Of a DNA stretch of 64,000 bases, positions 52,288 through 58,314 are shown piece by piece. Within the stretch, counting starts at the first letter, position 1; every line of letters begins with the position of its first letter. This stretch comes from Neorhizobium galegae. GTDB taxonomy: Bacteria; Pseudomonadota; Alphaproteobacteria; Rhizobiales; Rhizobiaceae. The stretch is taken from assembly GCF_021391675.1 (NCBI RefSeq), contig NZ_CP090095.1:3167501-3231500 (forward strand), in the 5' to 3' direction. The notes beneath the pieces are model-generated. The model was not told where the DNA came from, did not search any database, and saw only the letters and a program-made list of their open reading frames with translations. The translations under genes were made by a program, and so were the position numbers.

Positions 52288-53178
52288 ATGCGCGCCACAG
52301 ATCTTTCCGAACTCGCCGCCTTCGAAGCCGTAGCCCGCCACCTGAGTTTTCGCCGCGCAGCGGAGGAGCGCTACGTCACGGCTTCGGCCATCAGCCACGC
52401 GGTCAGCAATCTCGAAGAGCGGACCGGCGTCCGCCTGCTCCACCGCACCACCCGCAGCGTCTCTTTGACCGATGCCGGCGCCATGCTGCACGCGCAGCTT
52501 TCGCCCGCCTTCGGCGATATCGGCACAGCGCTCGACGCGCTCAACCAGTTCCGCGATACGCCCTTCGGCAAGGTGCGGATCAACGTGCCGAACTCGATCG
52601 CGCCGGCGGTGCTCGGCCAGGCGCTTGGGCCGCTCATTCGCGACAATCCGCATCTGAAGCTCGAAGTCGTCGCCACCGACCGGCTGGTCGATATCGTCGA
52701 GGAAGGGTTCGATGCCGGCATCCGGCTCGGCGAAAGCCTGCACCAGGGCATGATCGCGGTCAGGATCAAGCCGCGCCTGCGCCTCGTCGTGGTCGGTTCG
52801 CCCGCCTATTTCAGGGACCGGAAAATCCCTCAGACGCCGCAGGAGCTGGAAACCCACGTCTGTATCGAAAACACCTATCCGAGCGGCACCCGTTATCCCT
52901 GGGAATTCTCCCGCGACGGAGAAACCGTGACCTTCCATCCGAACGGACCGGTGGCGCTCGACGATCATGAACTGATGGTCGAGGTCGCCCGCTCCGGCAC
53001 GGCGCTCGCCTATGTCTGGGAAAACCGTGCCGAGCGCGACATCCGCGACGGCCGGCTCATCCAATGCCTGGACGCCTGGTGCCCGCCGGAGGACTGGCTC
53101 TACCTCTATTACCCGAGCCGCCGCAACATGTCGGCAGGCCTGCGCGCCGTCATCGAGGCGATGCGGGTCCAAGGCTAG
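52288..53178 (+). CDS. LysR-family transcriptional regulator
   Basis: The 296-residue protein has an N-terminal winged helix (LSELAAFEAVARHLSFRRAA, then SHAVSNLEERTGVRLLHRTT) and a substrate-binding domain (VRINVPNSIAPAVLGQALGP onward) of the CrgA-like type. It is divergent from the VOC gene, its probable target. Its stop overlaps the convergent NUDIX gene by four bases. Confidence 0.92.
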   Translation: MRATDLSELAAFEAVARHLSFRRAAEERYVTASAISHAVSNLEERTGVRLLHRTTRSVSLTDAGAMLHAQLSPAFGDIGTALDALNQFRDTPFGKVRINVPNSIAPAVLGQALGPLIRDNPHLKLEVVATDRLVDIVEEGFDAGIRLGESLHQGMIAVRIKPRLRLVVVGSPAYFRDRKIPQTPQELETHVCIENTYPSGTRYPWEFSRDGETVTFHPNGPVALDDHELMVEVARSGTALAYVWENRAERDIRDGRLIQCLDAWCPPEDWLYLYYPSRRNMSAGLRAVIEAMRVQG

Positions 53179-53684
53179 GACTTCAGGTCGAGATCGCCGT
53201 CGCGCCAGACGAGGTGGCGCGGACTGACCGGCAAGTTCTCGATCTCCTCGGCGATGAAGTAGGGCGGGATGTCGAGCGCCCTCAGCGCCGCGGTCGTCGC
53301 CGGCACCCATTTGAATTCCAGATCGTGTTCGTCCTTTATCCGGTGGACGATATCGGTCGGATGAAACGGAAACGTCTCCGGGATGTCCATCAAATAATAA
53401 TAACCGAGCTCATGCCAGTCGCGGTCTTCGTAGTGGAAGAAATTCTCGACCGACCAGAGCAGCCGCCCGACCGTCACCTCGACCCCGATTTCCTCGACCA
53501 TCTCGCGTCTCAGCGTCTCTTCCGAGGTCTCGCCAATCTCGGCCCGCCCGCCCGGAAACGTCCAGAATGCCTCGTCCACGGCGCGATGCACCAGCACGTA
53601 ACCATCGCGGAACCCAAGCCCGGCAATCCGCATCTGAAAGATGCGCTTGCTCTTGGTCTTGATACGGATGCGAGTGCGCGCCAT
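53175..53684 (-). CDS. NUDIX hydrolase
   Basis: The 169-residue protein has a complete Nudix box, GRAEIGETSEETLRREMVEE then IGV, fitting G-x5-E-x7-R-E-U-x-E-E-x-G-U. It hydrolyses a nucleoside diphosphate linked to another group; the N-terminal KSKRIFQMRIAGLGFRDGYV and VLVHRAVDEAFWTFPGG do not settle the substrate. It lies 5 bp after the metallophosphoesterase in the same direction, so the two may be co-transcribed. Confidence 0.9.
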   Translation of the reverse strand: MARTRIRIKTKSKRIFQMRIAGLGFRDGYVLVHRAVDEAFWTFPGGRAEIGETSEETLRREMVEEIGVEVTVGRLLWSVENFFHYEDRDWHELGYYYLMDIPETFPFHPTDIVHRIKDEHDLEFKWVPATTAALRALDIPPYFIAEEIENLPVSPRHLVWRDGDLDLKS

Positions 53685-53689
53685 GCGGT

Positions 53690-54589
53690 TTACCCCAGTT
53701 CGATCACGACGATTTCCGGCCTCGAGCCCACTCTCACCGGCAGGATGGAGCAGCCGAGGCCCCGGGACACGATGAGATCACGCTCCCCCTCACGATAATG
53801 TCCGGCCGGATAACGCCGCGAGCCCTGCGATGCAGCGGCGGGCCGCCAGCCCAGAATATTGATCTGACCGCCATGGGTATGACCCGAAAGCGTCAGACTG
53901 ACCCTCTCGCCCACCTGCGGAAATATGTCCGGCTCATGTGCCATGAGCAGCACCGGCGAGTCGTCGTCAATTTGCGCGAGCGTTCCCGGAAGATCGTCGA
54001 TGCCATTCATCCTCGTCCGCTTGAAGTCTTTGCCGGGACGCAGAGCCATCTGGTCGCCGAGGCCCGCCAGCCAGAACGATTGCCCGTCTTTCTCCAGCCT
54101 GACGGCCTCGTTGATGTAGGTCGGTATTCCAACGGCCCTCAGTGCGGCCGCCGCGATATTCTCGGCGAGGGGATCTCTCTGGAAACGAAGATCCTCCCAA
54201 TGGTCATGATTGCCGAGCACTGCATGAACGCCAAGCGGCGCCTTCAGCACCGAGAATACCCGCGACCAATCCGCCGACGGGATATGCTCGGTCAGCAGGT
54301 TCATTCCCGACACATAATCGCCGAGCAGCAGGATGACATCCCCGTTCAGCGCATTGGCCGCCGAACAGATCGACCCGATCCGGTCGAGGCTCATCCAGGG
54401 CTCGCAGGCGTGGATATCCGCCAGGACGATGATGCGCAGCTTCAATCCCGGCGTCCATCGCCTGGGCGTGACGGCATATTGCGTCAGCCGCGGCCGTGCC
54501 ATCACCTCCACGAAGGGATAGGCGGCCAGAGCGAACAGGGTCGCAACGCCTCCGGCAAAGGCCTTGAGCAAAGTCCGCCTTGTGAGCAC
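53690..54589 (-). CDS. Membrane-anchored metallophosphoesterase (YkuE/YaeI-like)
   Basis: The 299-residue protein starts MLTRRTLLKAFAGGVATLFA, an RR-containing signal/anchor that may be a Tat signal. The phosphoesterase domain shows VLADIHACEPW, LLLGDYVSG, VLGNHDHWED and TLSGHTHGGQ, the full set of metal ligands. Relatives cleave UDP-2,3-diacylglucosamine or other lipid phosphates, or lie in the envelope. The start codon follows immediately on the ruvB stop, so it is read from the ruv operon transcript. Confidence 0.88.
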   Translation of the reverse strand: MLTRRTLLKAFAGGVATLFALAAYPFVEVMARPRLTQYAVTPRRWTPGLKLRIIVLADIHACEPWMSLDRIGSICSAANALNGDVILLLGDYVSGMNLLTEHIPSADWSRVFSVLKAPLGVHAVLGNHDHWEDLRFQRDPLAENIAAAALRAVGIPTYINEAVRLEKDGQSFWLAGLGDQMALRPGKDFKRTRMNGIDDLPGTLAQIDDDSPVLLMAHEPDIFPQVGERVSLTLSGHTHGGQINILGWRPAAASQGSRRYPAGHYREGERDLIVSRGLGCSILPVRVGSRPEIVVIELG

Positions 54590-55630
54590 TCATTCATCCT
54601 CGAGATTCATCCGGAATTGCGCTGCCTCGAGATCCTTCGGCGGCTGCATTCCCAGATGTTTCCACGCGTTTGCGGTCAAAACGCGGCCCCGGGGCGTGCG
54701 CTGGATGAAACCCTGCTGGATCATGTAGGGTTCGATGATGTCCTCGATCGCATCGCGCGGTTCCGACAGACCTGCGGCGATCGTTTCGATGCCGACCGGT
54801 CCGCCACCGAAATTGACGGCGATCATGTTGAGGTAGCGTTTGTCGAGCTGGTCGAGACCCATATTGTCGACCAGAAGGCGGGTCAGCGCCTCGTCGGCGA
54901 TCTCCTTCGTCACCGCTTCGGCCTTCGCTACCTCGGCGAAATCGCGCACCCGTCGCAAGAGCCGCCCGGCGATGCGCGGCGTGCCACGGGCGCGGCGGGC
55001 GATCTCGCGGGCGCCTGCATCGGTGATCGAAAGGCTCATCAGCCGCGCACCGCGCCGGACGATCAGTTCCAGCTCATCGACCGTATAGAAGGACAACCGG
55101 ATGGGAATGCCGAACCGGTCGCGCAGCGGTGTGGTGAGCAGACCGGCCCGGGTGGTGGCGGCAACCAGCGTGAATTTCGACAGATCGATCTTCACCGACC
55201 GCGCCGACGGGCCTTCGCCAATGATCAGGTCGAGCTGGAAATCCTCCATCGCCGGATAGAGGATTTCCTCGACCGCCGGATTGAGCCGGTGGATTTCGTC
55301 GATGAAGAGCACGTCGCGCTCTTCGAGATTGGTGAGCAAGGCCGCAAGGTCGCCCGCCTTGGCGATGACCGGGCCGGATGTCGAGCGGAAATTGACGCCG
55401 AGTTCCTTGGCCATGATCTGCGCCAGCGTCGTCTTGCCGAGGCCGGGCGGGCCGACGAACAGCACGTGATCCAGCGCCTCGCCGCGGTTCTTCGCCGCCT
55501 CGATGAACACTTTCAGGTTGGCGCGCGCCTCCGCCTGGCCGGTGAACTCGTCCAGCGACTGCGGACGCAGCGTCGTATCCAGGTCTTCGCCCCGCTTTTC
55601 CGGCGTTATCAGGCGGGCGGGTTCACTCAT
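54590..55630 (-). CDS. ruvB: Holliday junction branch migration helicase RuvB
   Basis: AAA+ motor that drives Holliday-junction migration with RuvA. The 346-residue protein has Walker A GPPGLGKT (60-67), Walker [10 protein letters not shown] and the C-terminal winged helix with [16 protein letters not shown]. The start codon overlaps the stop of the toxin gene vapC1 by four bases (ATGA), so its translation is probably coupled to the toxin. In typical genomes ruvB follows ruvA directly. Confidence 0.96.
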
Positions 55631-56031
55631 GCGAGAAGTTCCATTCCGGGCACCTTGCGTGCAGCCTTTTGATCGAAGGTCTTTGTCGATTCACAGCCTT
55701 CCTCCAACGAGCGGCAGGCGATGACGGCATCGGCAAAGTCTGCATTGTTGGCCTCGACAAGCCGAAGCGCCTTTACGACAAGCGTATGGTTCTCGACCAT
55801 AAGCCCTCTCGTGTGAAGCAGCCTGTCTATGGCAAGTGTCACGTGCTTCCTGCTGAATCCGTATTGTGACCTGAGGGCCCAATCAAGCTCAAGCAGACCA
55901 ATCAGGGTGATAAAAGCGGAATAACCTCTTCCAAGGCCTTCCCCAAATTTGAGCGCTGCTGCCCGCTGCGACGGGTCGTCATCGATGAAAAGCCGCAGAA
56001 CGACATTCGTGTCGAGCCCAAAAACGGTCAT
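55627..56031 (-). CDS. VapC-type PIN-domain toxin (module 1)
   Basis: The 134-residue PIN nuclease has its acidic site intact: Asp7 (FGLDTNV), Glu48 (LLELDWAL), Asp98/Asp101 ([10 protein letters not shown]) and Asp120 (TFDQKA). VapC toxins cut tRNA or rRNA when free of antitoxin. It overlaps the antitoxin gene by four bases at its start and ruvB by four at its end, so three proteins are translationally chained. It is not similar at a glance to the second toxin at 57009. Confidence 0.9.
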
Positions 56032-56312
56032 GCGGCCGCATCCGCTTCTTTATCATCCTGCGTATCGACCGCATTCGCACCGGCGGCTTCCAGCACAGCG
56101 GCATCGATCTCATCGAGCGTCGCCCGCCCTTTCGGCGGTTTTCCAAGGAGCCCCGCGAGGTCGTTGAAGTTGACGTTCTTAGGCGTGATGACTACCTCTC
56201 CATTGACCAGTGAGTAAATCATACGGTCTCCGGGCTGAAGGTTGAGAGCTTCGCGCATCTCCTTCGGAATGGTCACCTGGCCCTTCGGCGAAAGCGTAAC
56301 TTCCCACCACAT
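56028..56312 (-). CDS. AbrB/MazE-type antitoxin (module 1)
   Basis: The 94-residue protein has a SpoVT/AbrB swapped-hairpin DNA-binding domain at its start: VTLSPKGQVTIPKEMREALN, then LQPGDRMIYSLVNGEVVITP. The C-terminal tail rich in Ala/Asp/Glu probably wraps the toxin. It lies 66 bp after ruvA with repeats between that could be its operator, and overlaps vapC1. It should neutralise the toxin and repress its own promoter. Confidence 0.9.
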   Translation of the reverse strand: MWWEVTLSPKGQVTIPKEMREALNLQPGDRMIYSLVNGEVVITPKNVNFNDLAGLLGKPPKGRATLDEIDAAVLEAAGANAVDTQDDKEADAAA

Positions 56313-56322
56313 ACATCACCTG

Positions 56323-56370
56323 TTCCGACAAAACGCTATTCGAAGGAAATTTTATCAAACTTCCGACAAA
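56323..56370. promoter_or_regulatory. Direct repeats upstream of the module-1 antitoxin
   Basis: TTCCGACAAA occurs twice on the plus strand, at 56323-56332 and 56361-56370, 38 bp apart, with an inverted GGAA/TTCC pair between them. The pair brackets the gap between ruvA and the antitoxin gene. Binding sites for the antitoxin-toxin complex would be expected here. Confidence 0.45.
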
Positions 56371-56378
56371 TCAGCAAA

Positions 56379-56996
56379 TCACCGCGCCAGCTCCTTCAGC
56401 CCCAGCCGGATAAGCCTGGCGCTGTCGCCGCCCTCGCCGCCGTTCTTGAGCGCCGCCGCAACCGCATTCGCGGCCTGGTCGCGCGAGTAGCCGAGATTGG
56501 TGAGCGCCGAAACGGCATCGGCGACCGGTGCGGCGGCCACCCCCTCGCCGAGCTCCTGCTTGAGGCCGATATTGCCCGAAGCCTCGCCGGCAAAGGCGGG
56601 CGCCTTGTTCTTGAGTTCGGTGACGATGCGCACCGCGACCTTCGGCCCGACACCGGGCGCACGCGAGACGGTCGTCTTGTCCTGAAGGGCAATCGCATTG
56701 GCAAGCTCGGAAGGCGTCAGCGTCGAGAGCACCGCGAGCGCCACCTTGGCGCCGACGCCCTGCACGCTCTGCAGCAGGTTGAACCATTCCCGCTCCAGCG
56801 CCGTCAGGAAGCCGAAAAGCTTGAACTGGTCCTCGCGCACATAGGTCTCGATGAACAGCACCACCGCCTCGCCGACCGAACCCATCTTCGACAGAACCCG
56901 CGACGAGCAGAACACCTCGTAACAGACGCCGTGAACGTCGACGAGCACATAGTCGTCGCCGATCTCGTCGATAGTGCCTTTGAGCTTGCCGATCAT
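56379..56996 (-). CDS. ruvA: Holliday junction complex subunit RuvA
   Basis: Tetrameric DNA-binding partner of RuvB. The 205-residue protein has domain I ([20 protein letters not shown]), the paired helix-hairpin-helix region ([20 protein letters not shown] and [16 protein letters not shown]) and a flexible linker to the C-terminal RuvB-binding domain ([20 protein letters not shown]). It is flanked by two toxin-antitoxin modules, 12 bp after vapC2 and 66 bp before module 1. Its translation thus depends on a transcript that also encodes toxins. Confidence 0.96.
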
Positions 56997-57008
56997 GAAA
57001 GATGTCCG

Positions 57009-57422
57009 TCAGGGATGGGTTTCGGGGGAGATGATGGAAATCAAGGGAAAATAGGTCCGGTACCTTGCTACATCCCGGCTGAGCAGCCTGTAGCCTTTGA
57101 CCATCGCATGGGCGCCAATGTAGAAATCGGGGAGCGGCGAACGTTTGTCCCCGCCCAGGCGGCGGTATTGCAAGAAAGCGTGGCCTGCCGCGTAGGCCGC
57201 CTCCCAAGGGAGATCTTCCCGCCGGAAAAGACTGGGCGCAAGTGCCGATTCCAGTTCCTCGCTCGTCGCGTAACCGGCGGCCATTTCCGCATAAATCAAC
57301 GGATTGATCAGCAGCGGCCCGTTTGTCTGGGCAGCCGCCAATTGTTCGGTCGACCATTCGGTGAAGGCGCTCCGCGTGTGGAACACGTCGATCAGGACAT
57401 TGGTATCGACAAGGGTCGCCAT
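57009..57422 (-). CDS. VapC-type PIN-domain toxin (module 2)
   Basis: The 137-residue PIN nuclease shows Asp6 (LVDTNVLID), Glu46 (IYAEMAAGY), Asp99 (PLPDFYIGAHA) and Asp117 (LLSRDVARYRTYFP), all catalytic carboxylates present. The C-terminal DVARYRTYFP block is typical of a common VapC subgroup and differs from module 1. It starts 4 bp after the antitoxin gene ends and stops 12 bp before ruvA. Confidence 0.92.
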   Translation of the reverse strand: MATLVDTNVLIDVFHTRSAFTEWSTEQLAAAQTNGPLLINPLIYAEMAAGYATSEELESALAPSLFRREDLPWEAAYAAGHAFLQYRRLGGDKRSPLPDFYIGAHAMVKGYRLLSRDVARYRTYFPLISIISPETHP

Positions 57423-57426
57423 GCGA

Positions 57427-57675
57427 TCAGTCTCTCAGAAGACGATAAAATTCCTCGCCACTCATATCGCCGAGAGACATGGACCCTTGATGCCGCCTGA
57501 GGTGATCCATGAGCACGCGAACATTGCGTTCGGCTTCCTCACGAGACGGCTCAACACGGCGAAGCACGGCTTCACCCTCGCGAAGAACAAATTCCACCTC
57601 GCTGCCCGGTTCAATCCCCAGATTGGAGCGGACATTTTTCGGGATCGTAACCTGGCCTTTTTCCGTGACGCGCAT
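57427..57675 (-). CDS. AbrB-type antitoxin (module 2)
   Basis: The 82-residue protein has an N-terminal AbrB/SpoVT fold (RVTEKGQVTIPKNVRSNLGI, then EPGSEVEFVLREGEAVLRRV) and a charged helical tail (EAERNVRVLMDHLRRHQGSM) that would bind the toxin. A perfect palindrome lies directly before its start codon, and its ribosome-binding AGAGG is part of that palindrome, so repression may block both RNA polymerase and ribosomes. It follows ruvC by 55 bp. Confidence 0.92.
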   Translation of the reverse strand: MRVTEKGQVTIPKNVRSNLGIEPGSEVEFVLREGEAVLRRVEPSREEAERNVRVLMDHLRRHQGSMSLGDMSGEEFYRLLRD

Positions 57676-57676
57676 G

Positions 57677-57697
57677 GTAATACCTCTGAGGTATTAC
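57677..57697. promoter_or_regulatory. Perfect palindromic operator of vapBC module 2
   Basis: Arms GTAATACCTC (57677-57686) and GAGGTATTAC (57688-57697) are exact complements around a single central base. The palindrome starts one base from the antitoxin start codon. Autorepression by VapBC through palindromes near the start is well known. The SD sequence AGAGG is contained in the palindrome. Confidence 0.8.
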
Positions 57698-57730
57698 TTA
57701 CTGGCCAACCCAGAACAAGTCAAGAACAAA

Positions 57731-58246
57731 CTAGCCGGCGAGTGCCGCGCGCATGCGTTGGCCGCCGCGGTTATGGGCGTGGCAGATGGCGATTGCCAGC
57801 GCGTCGGCAGCGTCATTGCCCTTGAACTCCGCCTTCGGCATCAGGATCTTCAGCATCATGTGGATCTGCTGCTTTTCGCCGTGGCCGACGCCGATCACCG
57901 ATTTCTTGACCGCGTTCGGCGCATATTCGGCAACCGGCAGCCCGGCCCTTGCCGGCACCAGCATGACGACGCCCCTCGCCTGGCCGAGCTTCAGCGTCGC
58001 GACTGCGTCCTTGTTGACGAAGGTCTGTTCGACGGCCGCCTCGTCCGGCTGGTAGGCATGCACCACTTCCGCCAGCCCGTCGTGCAACTGGCAGAGGCGT
58101 GAGGCGAGATCCATGTCGCCGTCGGAGGTCACGGTCCCCGACGCGACGAATTTCAGGCTGTTGCCGAGCGTCTCGATAATGCCCCAGCCGGTGCGCCGAA
58201 GCCCCGGGTCGATGCCGATGATGCGAATCGTGCCTGTCATGCCCAT
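57731..58246 (-). CDS. ruvC: Holliday junction resolvase RuvC
   Basis: Endonuclease that resolves Holliday junctions. The 171-residue protein has the first catalytic Asp13 in [14 protein letters not shown], a conserved Glu in [20 protein letters not shown], and the C-terminal acidic pair in [16 protein letters not shown]. The start could be the ATG at 58246 or at 58240; the first has AGGA at a better distance. It is first in the ruv operon. yebC, its usual upstream neighbour, is 2.8 kb away. Confidence 0.95.
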
Positions 58247-58314
58247 ACCCTATCCTGATGCCCCAACCAGTGCCATGAGAATGTGAACAAACCGAAAACG
58301 GGAATGCAGCACCG

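Follow-up and report, generated by a model that had tools for sequence, protein, structure and literature searches.

VapBC toxin–antitoxin modules at both junctions of the ruvCAB operon in Neorhizobium galegae and its relatives

Why chromosomes retain toxin–antitoxin (TA) modules is a long-standing question, and a 64,000-nucleotide (nt) stretch of Neorhizobium galegae DNA (contig NZ_CP090095.1, positions 3,167,501 to 3,231,500 of the forward strand; here called the window) raises it in a pointed form: what keeps a VapBC module at each of the two junctions of ruvCAB, an operon of Holliday-junction repair? The answer that we favour, with a probability of roughly 0.6, is that these are ancient, LexA-controlled, allele-swapping modules that have become entrenched through coupling to ruvA and ruvB. 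Because one and the same place is found occupied once or in tandem, decayed or empty, and the toxin end seems to serve also as the start signal of a repair gene, experiments can tell entrenchment, benefit and diversifying selection apart.

The locus and its distribution

On the minus strand the genes run ruvC, vapB2-vapC2, ruvA, vapB1-vapC1, ruvB, an order on which open reading frames (ORFs) and Pfam agree and which the first-pass annotation of this DNA had read correctly. We refer to the ruvC-ruvA and ruvA-ruvB junctions as CA and AB, and to the VapC1 and VapC2 toxins as T1 and T2; lengths are in amino acids (aa).

57731..58246, minus strand, ruvC (PF02075, 5.7e-46)
57427..57675, minus strand, vapB2, AbrB/MazE-type antitoxin, 82 aa (PF04014, 1.5e-11)
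57009..57422, minus strand, vapC2, PIN toxin, 137 aa, C-terminus PETHP (PF01850, 1.6e-10)
56379..56996, minus strand, ruvA (TIGR00084, 3.2e-58)
56028..56312, minus strand, vapB1, AbrB/MazE-type antitoxin, 94 aa (PF04014, 3.1e-12)
55627..56031, minus strand, vapC1, PIN toxin, 134 aa, C-terminus PGMELLA (PF01850, 1.7e-7)
54590..55630, minus strand, ruvB (TIGR00635, 2e-135)

Each toxin is directly preceded by an antitoxin with the DNA-binding PF04014 domain, and the annotated layout of one AbrB-type antitoxin and one PIN toxin per junction, on one strand and tightly spaced, is borne out by ORFs and Pfam: vapB2 and vapC2 are 4 nt apart, vapC2 and ruvA 12 nt, vapB1 and vapC1 overlap by 4 nt, and vapC1 overlaps ruvB by 4 nt, as ATGA. 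The two toxins score 32.3 and 42.1 bits against the PIN family of Pfam, above its cut-off of 23.6; the NCBIfam VapC model matches T2 at 38.2, below its cut-off of 80, and T1 is not among its matches. Searched as profiles against solved structures, T1 finds a sole, weak match in PcrIIC1 (8wmm; E 1.1e-5) and T2 finds none. Acidic residues D7, E48, D101 and D120 of T1 are invariant across 28 aligned toxins, as are D6, E46 and D117 of T2 across 30, with D99 nearly so. We take these to be the catalytic quartet of PIN toxins, and the annotated retention of catalytic carboxylates agrees with their conservation. Between T1 and T2 the alignment extends over just 10 residues (E 0.13), and the two antitoxins have in common just the AbrB core (38 residues, 42%); a recent duplication of one vapBC pair is therefore excluded, as had been proposed from the difference between the pairs. 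The whole genome contains 18 PIN matches, two of them at the ruv locus. Outside the window (C1:3384290-3385400), one strand carries two further PIN matches separated by some 365 bp.

The arrangement extends well beyond this genome. In a genus survey, RuvA was located in 57 species and both junctions were measured, an insert of 707-813 bp counting as full. By this measure CA is full in 41 species, AB in 38 and both in 30; the T2 query finds all 41 full CA and the T1 query all 38 full AB, with constant order and strand at every full junction. A family survey of 394 genomes in 109 genera placed T1 and T2 profile matches relative to ruvB, with profiles built from ruv-located toxins, so that relatives elsewhere are under-sampled. 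Among the matches listed for the 150 genomes in which ruvB was listed, T1 lies directly before ruvB in 59, T2 lies 500-4000 nt upstream of ruvB (a CA-like distance) in 56, and both are at ruv in 29; in 29 other genomes, with no ruvB listed, T1 and T2 are collinear and 934-1009 bp apart, as if flanking ruvA. Of the 74 T1 matches listed for ruvB-listed genomes, 59 lie next to ruvB and another is the second tandem copy in G194. The remaining 14, all at other places, have E-values no better than 2.8e-37, a level at which a few ruvB-adjoining matches are also found. A scan across genomes of 84,980 species with the toxin-tail pattern AAxx[VI]PGMEL, which biases it to the ruvB site (the genus count is unbiased), returned 149 relatives, and the best 80 of the 149 are all directly upstream of ruvB (80/80). 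Named holders of T1 at ruvB include Neorhizobium, Rhizobium, Agrobacterium, Pararhizobium, Shinella, Mesorhizobium, Hoeflea, Martelella and Devosia.

Outside the family, T1 is at ruvB in 4 of 26 loci examined within the order, all four in family f6, and T2 is at ruvA in 13 of 23 (families f28, f14 and f16); at class level T1 is at ruvB in none of the 14 loci examined (L381-L394). Rhizobium leguminosarum USDA 2370 has a full AB and a CA of 41 nt, and in strain 3841, as far as the available part of the report goes, a VapBC pair precedes ruvA, with ruvA and ruvB on consecutive locus tags (PMC11406972); the arrangement is therefore polymorphic within this species name.

The genus and family counts exclude a rare local insertion, and a test set beforehand, whether such modules simply lie at random sites, was run for relatives of T1 and T2 and, for these, did not go against the association with ruv. 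Judged from these surveys and the allele comparisons below, the arrangement is old, is spread over much of the family, reaches some sister families, is position-specific for each toxin lineage and is allele-swapped. The earlier picture of two modules inserted here is thus right in that both are present, and incomplete in leaving out this history and the LexA-boxed leader and candidate operator that vapBC2 has of its own.

Toxin ends, LexA boxes and allele exchange

Finer comparisons draw on 191 loci: 57 from the genus, 80 from the family and 80 named ones (217), less 26, namely L229, which had no ruvC match, and 25 exact duplicates. Of the family loci, 63 were picked for absence of both profiles near ruvB (G239 was excluded, a contig end being close), and the named loci were picked by toxin tail; occupancy fractions in this set are not population rates, to which the two surveys come nearer. 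One of the 81 full CA, L237, carries an insert other than a TA pair.

At AB the toxin gene runs into ruvB, and one element of the window is needed here:

55639..55642, minus strand, GGAA at -12..-9 of ruvB, candidate Shine-Dalgarno sequence within the Met-Glu codons of vapC1

The vapC1 stop and ruvB start overlap as ATGA in 97 of 111 full AB, and GGA occupies -12..-10 of ruvB in 98 of these 111 as against 15 of 65 empty AB. The GGA bases belong to the Met-Glu codons of the toxin tail xMELLx, and this ME tail is present in 86 of 88 distinct ruvB-located toxins versus none of 32 relatives located elsewhere. Two T1 toxins were also compared with 5.8 billion proteins: of their 120 best homologues each, 111/116 and 108/116 of the full-length ones end in the ME tail. 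It is likely that the end of vapC1 encodes the ribosome-binding site of ruvB. CA toxins mostly end in P(E/D)THP: TH falls within the last 22 residues in 74 of 75 toxins at ruvA versus 0 of 13 elsewhere, and a P-x-TH tail is found in 112 of 119 top homologues. Among AB that are not full, 14 of 80 give a loose toxin-tail match, and some ten of these look convincing on inspection. In decayed copies the tail has stayed in register with ruvB (e.g. L068, L070, L172, L178, L214 and L216), the remnant that toxin-to-ruvB translational coupling would leave. The first-pass suggestion that the modules are held in place because their loss would damage ruv gains support, in that it fits the start overlap, the likely ribosome-binding site and the tail-keeping copies.

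Three elements lie around vapB2 and ruvC:

57713..57727, minus strand, LexA (SOS) box GTTCTTGACTTGTTC, a match to the pattern GTTCN7GTTC, with TTGACT as candidate -35
57677..57697, no strand assigned, perfect 10-bp inverted repeat GTAATACCTC-N-GAGGTATTAC from a repeat search, candidate VapB2 operator
58285..58299, minus strand, degenerate LexA-like box GTTTTCGGTTTGTTC, 53 nt before ruvC, 7 of 8 motif bases

The box GTTCTTGACTTGTTC stands directly after ruvC, its start 52 nt ahead of vapB2. GTTCN7GTTC is the SOS box of Caulobacter, where, in the accessible part of the source, ruvCAB is upregulated (PMC9578287), and the motif also occurs upstream of recA and lexA in the same genome as the window. 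At CA it is present in 81/81 full, 6/12 intermediate and 9/98 empty junctions (full versus empty, Fisher 3.8e-41, not corrected for kinship), and the exact 15-mer in 78/81, 4/12 and 8/98, respectively; the -35-like TTGACT inside the box recurs in 77 of 80 distinct leaders. Among 45 non-ruv relatives of T1 and T2 the exact box is found in none, and a loose match no more than 550 nt before the toxin in two. The box before ruvC, mostly GTTT-N7-GTTC about 53 nt upstream, follows a different pattern: at least 7 of 8 motif bases occur within 150 nt of ruvC in 177 of 191 loci, while 10.9% of shuffles reach 7 of 8 and 0.4% reach 8. Since most loci have it, with full and empty junctions alike, the operon was probably linked to SOS before the modules arrived, and the CA box would be an addition. 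The palindrome between box and vapB2 varies with the antitoxin class, being mostly GTAATACC-GGTATTAC in the TEKGQ class and GTAAG-CTTAC in the TSKGQ class; the repeat search found no inverted repeat before vapB1. A coupling of growth arrest to DNA repair, also suggested in the first pass, likewise gains support, in that it fits the LexA box before vapB2.

A few junctions depart from the usual content. Two vapBC modules stand in tandem in AB of G194 (L233) and in CA of G067 (L234), the latter with one LexA box each. CA of L237 (G198) is mostly filled by a 301-aa ORF that is not vapBC, and retains a LexA box near ruvA. L174 (G077; CA 426, AB 519) and L179 (G113; AB 499) give no match to the T1, A1, T2 and A2 queries. 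In the window, a calcineurin-like phosphoesterase gene (PF00149) begins right at the ruvB stop and with a NUDIX gene (PF00293) occupies 53175-54589 downstream, on the same strand.

Toxin ORFs are intact by script in 77 of 81 full CA and 100 of 111 full AB; of the 11 failing AB, the nine that were re-checked proved to be open frames with the usual tail. For pairs of toxins at least 80% alike, which are not independent of one another, median ratios of nonsynonymous to synonymous substitution rates (dN/dS) are 0.0825 (96 pairs) and 0.088 (93 pairs); a single AB pair reaches 0.669 at a dS of 0.03. On these ratios the toxin genes are under purifying selection.

Between near-identical species, toxins may be only 37-69% alike and are combined independently at the two junctions. 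Eight genomes with ruvA at least 90% alike (DNA) sort into allele groups as follows:

T1a-T2a: L019, L028
T1a-T2b: L023
T1b-T2a: L024, L025
T1b-T2b: L020, L021
third T1 with T2b: L022

All four combinations of T1 and T2 are thus found at the level of allele clades. Inside these clades T2b is represented by sub-alleles, 70-71% alike (DNA) between L023 and L020-L022, and T1b is 86-87% alike between L020-L021 and L024-L025. The clearest swaps are L019/L023 (AB 98%, CA 59%) and L019/L024 (CA 98%, AB 66%). Followed in 30-nt windows, identity drops either 30-60 nt into vapB2 or where ruvA stops and is back at 97-100% over the final 13-18 nt of each toxin, so that the borders lie near gene ends.

Toxin trees, built on 131-138 columns and with many forks left open, separate ruv-located from non-ruv and plasmid toxins with 2 label changes for T1 and 2 for T2, and 0 of 500 shuffles are as low; on that count the ruv-located toxins have few origins, perhaps one for each junction. 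Ruv-located subclades mix genera, and the deep clades shared between genera number three or more for T2 and several for T1. A group of toxins from plasmids and further non-ruv sites is nested in T2 clade a, and the T2 of the window is closer to a cyanobacterial plasmid toxin (58.8% identity, the best listed) than to another allele at its own site (47%); the site was therefore probably colonised a second time, or toxins escaped from it to plasmids. Among the best 15 of 144 records, VapC toxins carried on plasmids of cyanobacteria and Paracoccus have 51-59% identity to vapC2.

What may hold the modules in place

In the reading that we favour, each ruv junction would be the home of its own long-resident VapBC lineage. 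DNA damage would lead to LexA cleavage and open the box before vapB2, where LexA is predicted to bind, so that vapB2-vapC2-ruvA-vapB1-vapC1-ruvB would be switched on together by read-through from inside the operon, beside the weaker box before ruvC; VapB bound at the candidate operator would damp the same leader. Because the toxin genes run into or close to the ruvA or ruvB start, ruv expression would depend on an open toxin frame, and the modules would resist loss: random decay would harm repair, and decayed copies would retain the tail. Within this fixed frame the antitoxin–toxin body would be replaced by recombination with other alleles. Freed toxins, as presumed RNases, would slow growth by RNA cleavage, a short, damage-timed brake while RuvAB repairs junctions. 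One prediction is that transposon insertions in the toxin genes would resemble ruv mutants, a point of relevance to insertion sequencing, e.g. in R. leguminosarum. In strain 3841, in what is available of that work, root attachment is impaired by insertions in any of vapB, vapC, ruvA and ruvB, the last three of which also fall in a common later phenotype class (PMC11406972). Polarity or coupling would give this phenotype, and we regard polarity as at least as likely as a TA role.

Several points weigh against this account. The authors of that study, in the text available, call vapBC a TA pair required for attachment and do not invoke polarity (PMC11406972). Neither junction is full in 8 of 57 genus species, and neither profile is at ruv in 64 of 150 family genomes, among the matches listed. 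GTTCN7GTTC occurs in the 64-kb window at chance (2 found, 1.95 expected); the loose pattern being so common, the weight of the box rests on its conservation. At the 13 non-family T2-at-ruvA loci, the GTTCTTGACNTGTTC form is present in 3 and any GTTCN7GTTC between ruvC and the antitoxin in 5, and among the f28 loci (L354-L357, L360, L362, L363 and L365) the box was found in one of eight, L357, variant boxes not having been sought; some of these modules therefore lack the box. In the AB leader there is no LexA excess (5/111 at 7 of 8 bases; shuffles 7.4%), and LexA control of vapBC1 is rejected on this ground. Between 54400 and 58600 the promoter scan gave no strict sigma-70 site (shuffles 0.8), so that the promoter before vapB2 is a presumed one, and terminators are at chance (3 versus 4.0 expected).

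A bolder account, possible and put forward tentatively, makes ruvCAB a two-slot, SOS-fired toxin locus under balancing selection. A fixed LexA box, operator, antitoxin head and toxin tail, the last starting the next ruv gene, would hold exchangeable antitoxin–toxin bodies with alleles that predate the genera; loss of an allele would cost Holliday-junction repair, and rare alleles would pay, e.g. against plasmids or phages with matching toxins.

Entrenchment by itself might be enough, the modules being selfish passengers, seated by supplying the ruvA and ruvB start signals, whose toxins bring no benefit and whose LexA box serves ruvAB alone. Decayed copies with the ruvB-overlapping tail (the six loci named above), the frequency of relatives without a ruv match and, as far as the available text goes, the common phenotype of vapC and ruvAB insertions in R. 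leguminosarum all agree with this. For entrenchment an open frame and a tail would do; the acidic residues are nevertheless kept and dN/dS is about 0.08-0.09. That is a weak objection, as a selfish toxin also needs intact catalysis. Allele exchange points to selection on the toxin body. We think this account rather unlikely.

Diversifying selection for defence or self-recognition, with VapBC alleles at a fixed site protecting against mobile elements, phages or foreign VapC and SOS timing them to invasion, would explain the deep T2 (at least three) and T1 clades that cross genera, the independent differences of near-identical species at each junction, and T2 relatives on plasmids, the best listed of which is closer to the window toxin than another allele at the same site. 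We nevertheless find it doubtful: dN/dS is low, not raised, between toxins at least 80% alike, and PADLOC defence models gave no match to the four proteins at 1e-3, no other search for a link to phages having been made. Very improbable is a functionless hot spot, in which the gaps of a dispensable operon gather TA cassettes by chance, as the other DNA in L174, L179 and L237 might indicate, because each toxin lineage is faithful to its own junction, order and strand and the tails and LexA box are site-specific; placement at ruv and the tails rule out a random-site version for relatives of T1 and T2.

Comparison with known systems

VapBC modules, LexA boxes and SOS-controlled TA pairs such as dinB-yafNO and higBA are already known individually. 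E. coli dinB-yafNO presumably differs from the ruv modules in having a RelE-type toxin and one module, downstream of the repair gene, and we know of no allele swapping or toxin-coded start signal there; Caulobacter higBA is of the HigB/HigA family and, we assume, is not located inside ruv. The likeness, in the accessible part of one source, is that dinB-yafN-yafO-yafP joins a TA pair and a repair gene in one SOS-regulated operon, and that higBA is an SOS-regulated TA pair in a host with the SOS box GTTCN7GTTC (PMC9578287). VapBC10 of Sinorhizobium meliloti similarly combines a PIN toxin and a small DNA-binding antitoxin in overlapping genes, but forms a stand-alone operon, and 'ruv' is absent from the available text of that report (PMC10945364), as it is from the available main text of PMC2701414.

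In the open-licence literature, as far as its accessible text goes, the only report found of a vapBC pair at ruvA is that on R. leguminosarum 3841 (PMC11406972). There vapBC-ruvAB (RL3987-RL3990) concerns one strain and one junction within an attachment gene set, with no mention in the available part of a LexA box, coupling or a lineage pattern. As in N. galegae, its VapBC lies directly before ruvA, and it is a single member of the pattern described here.

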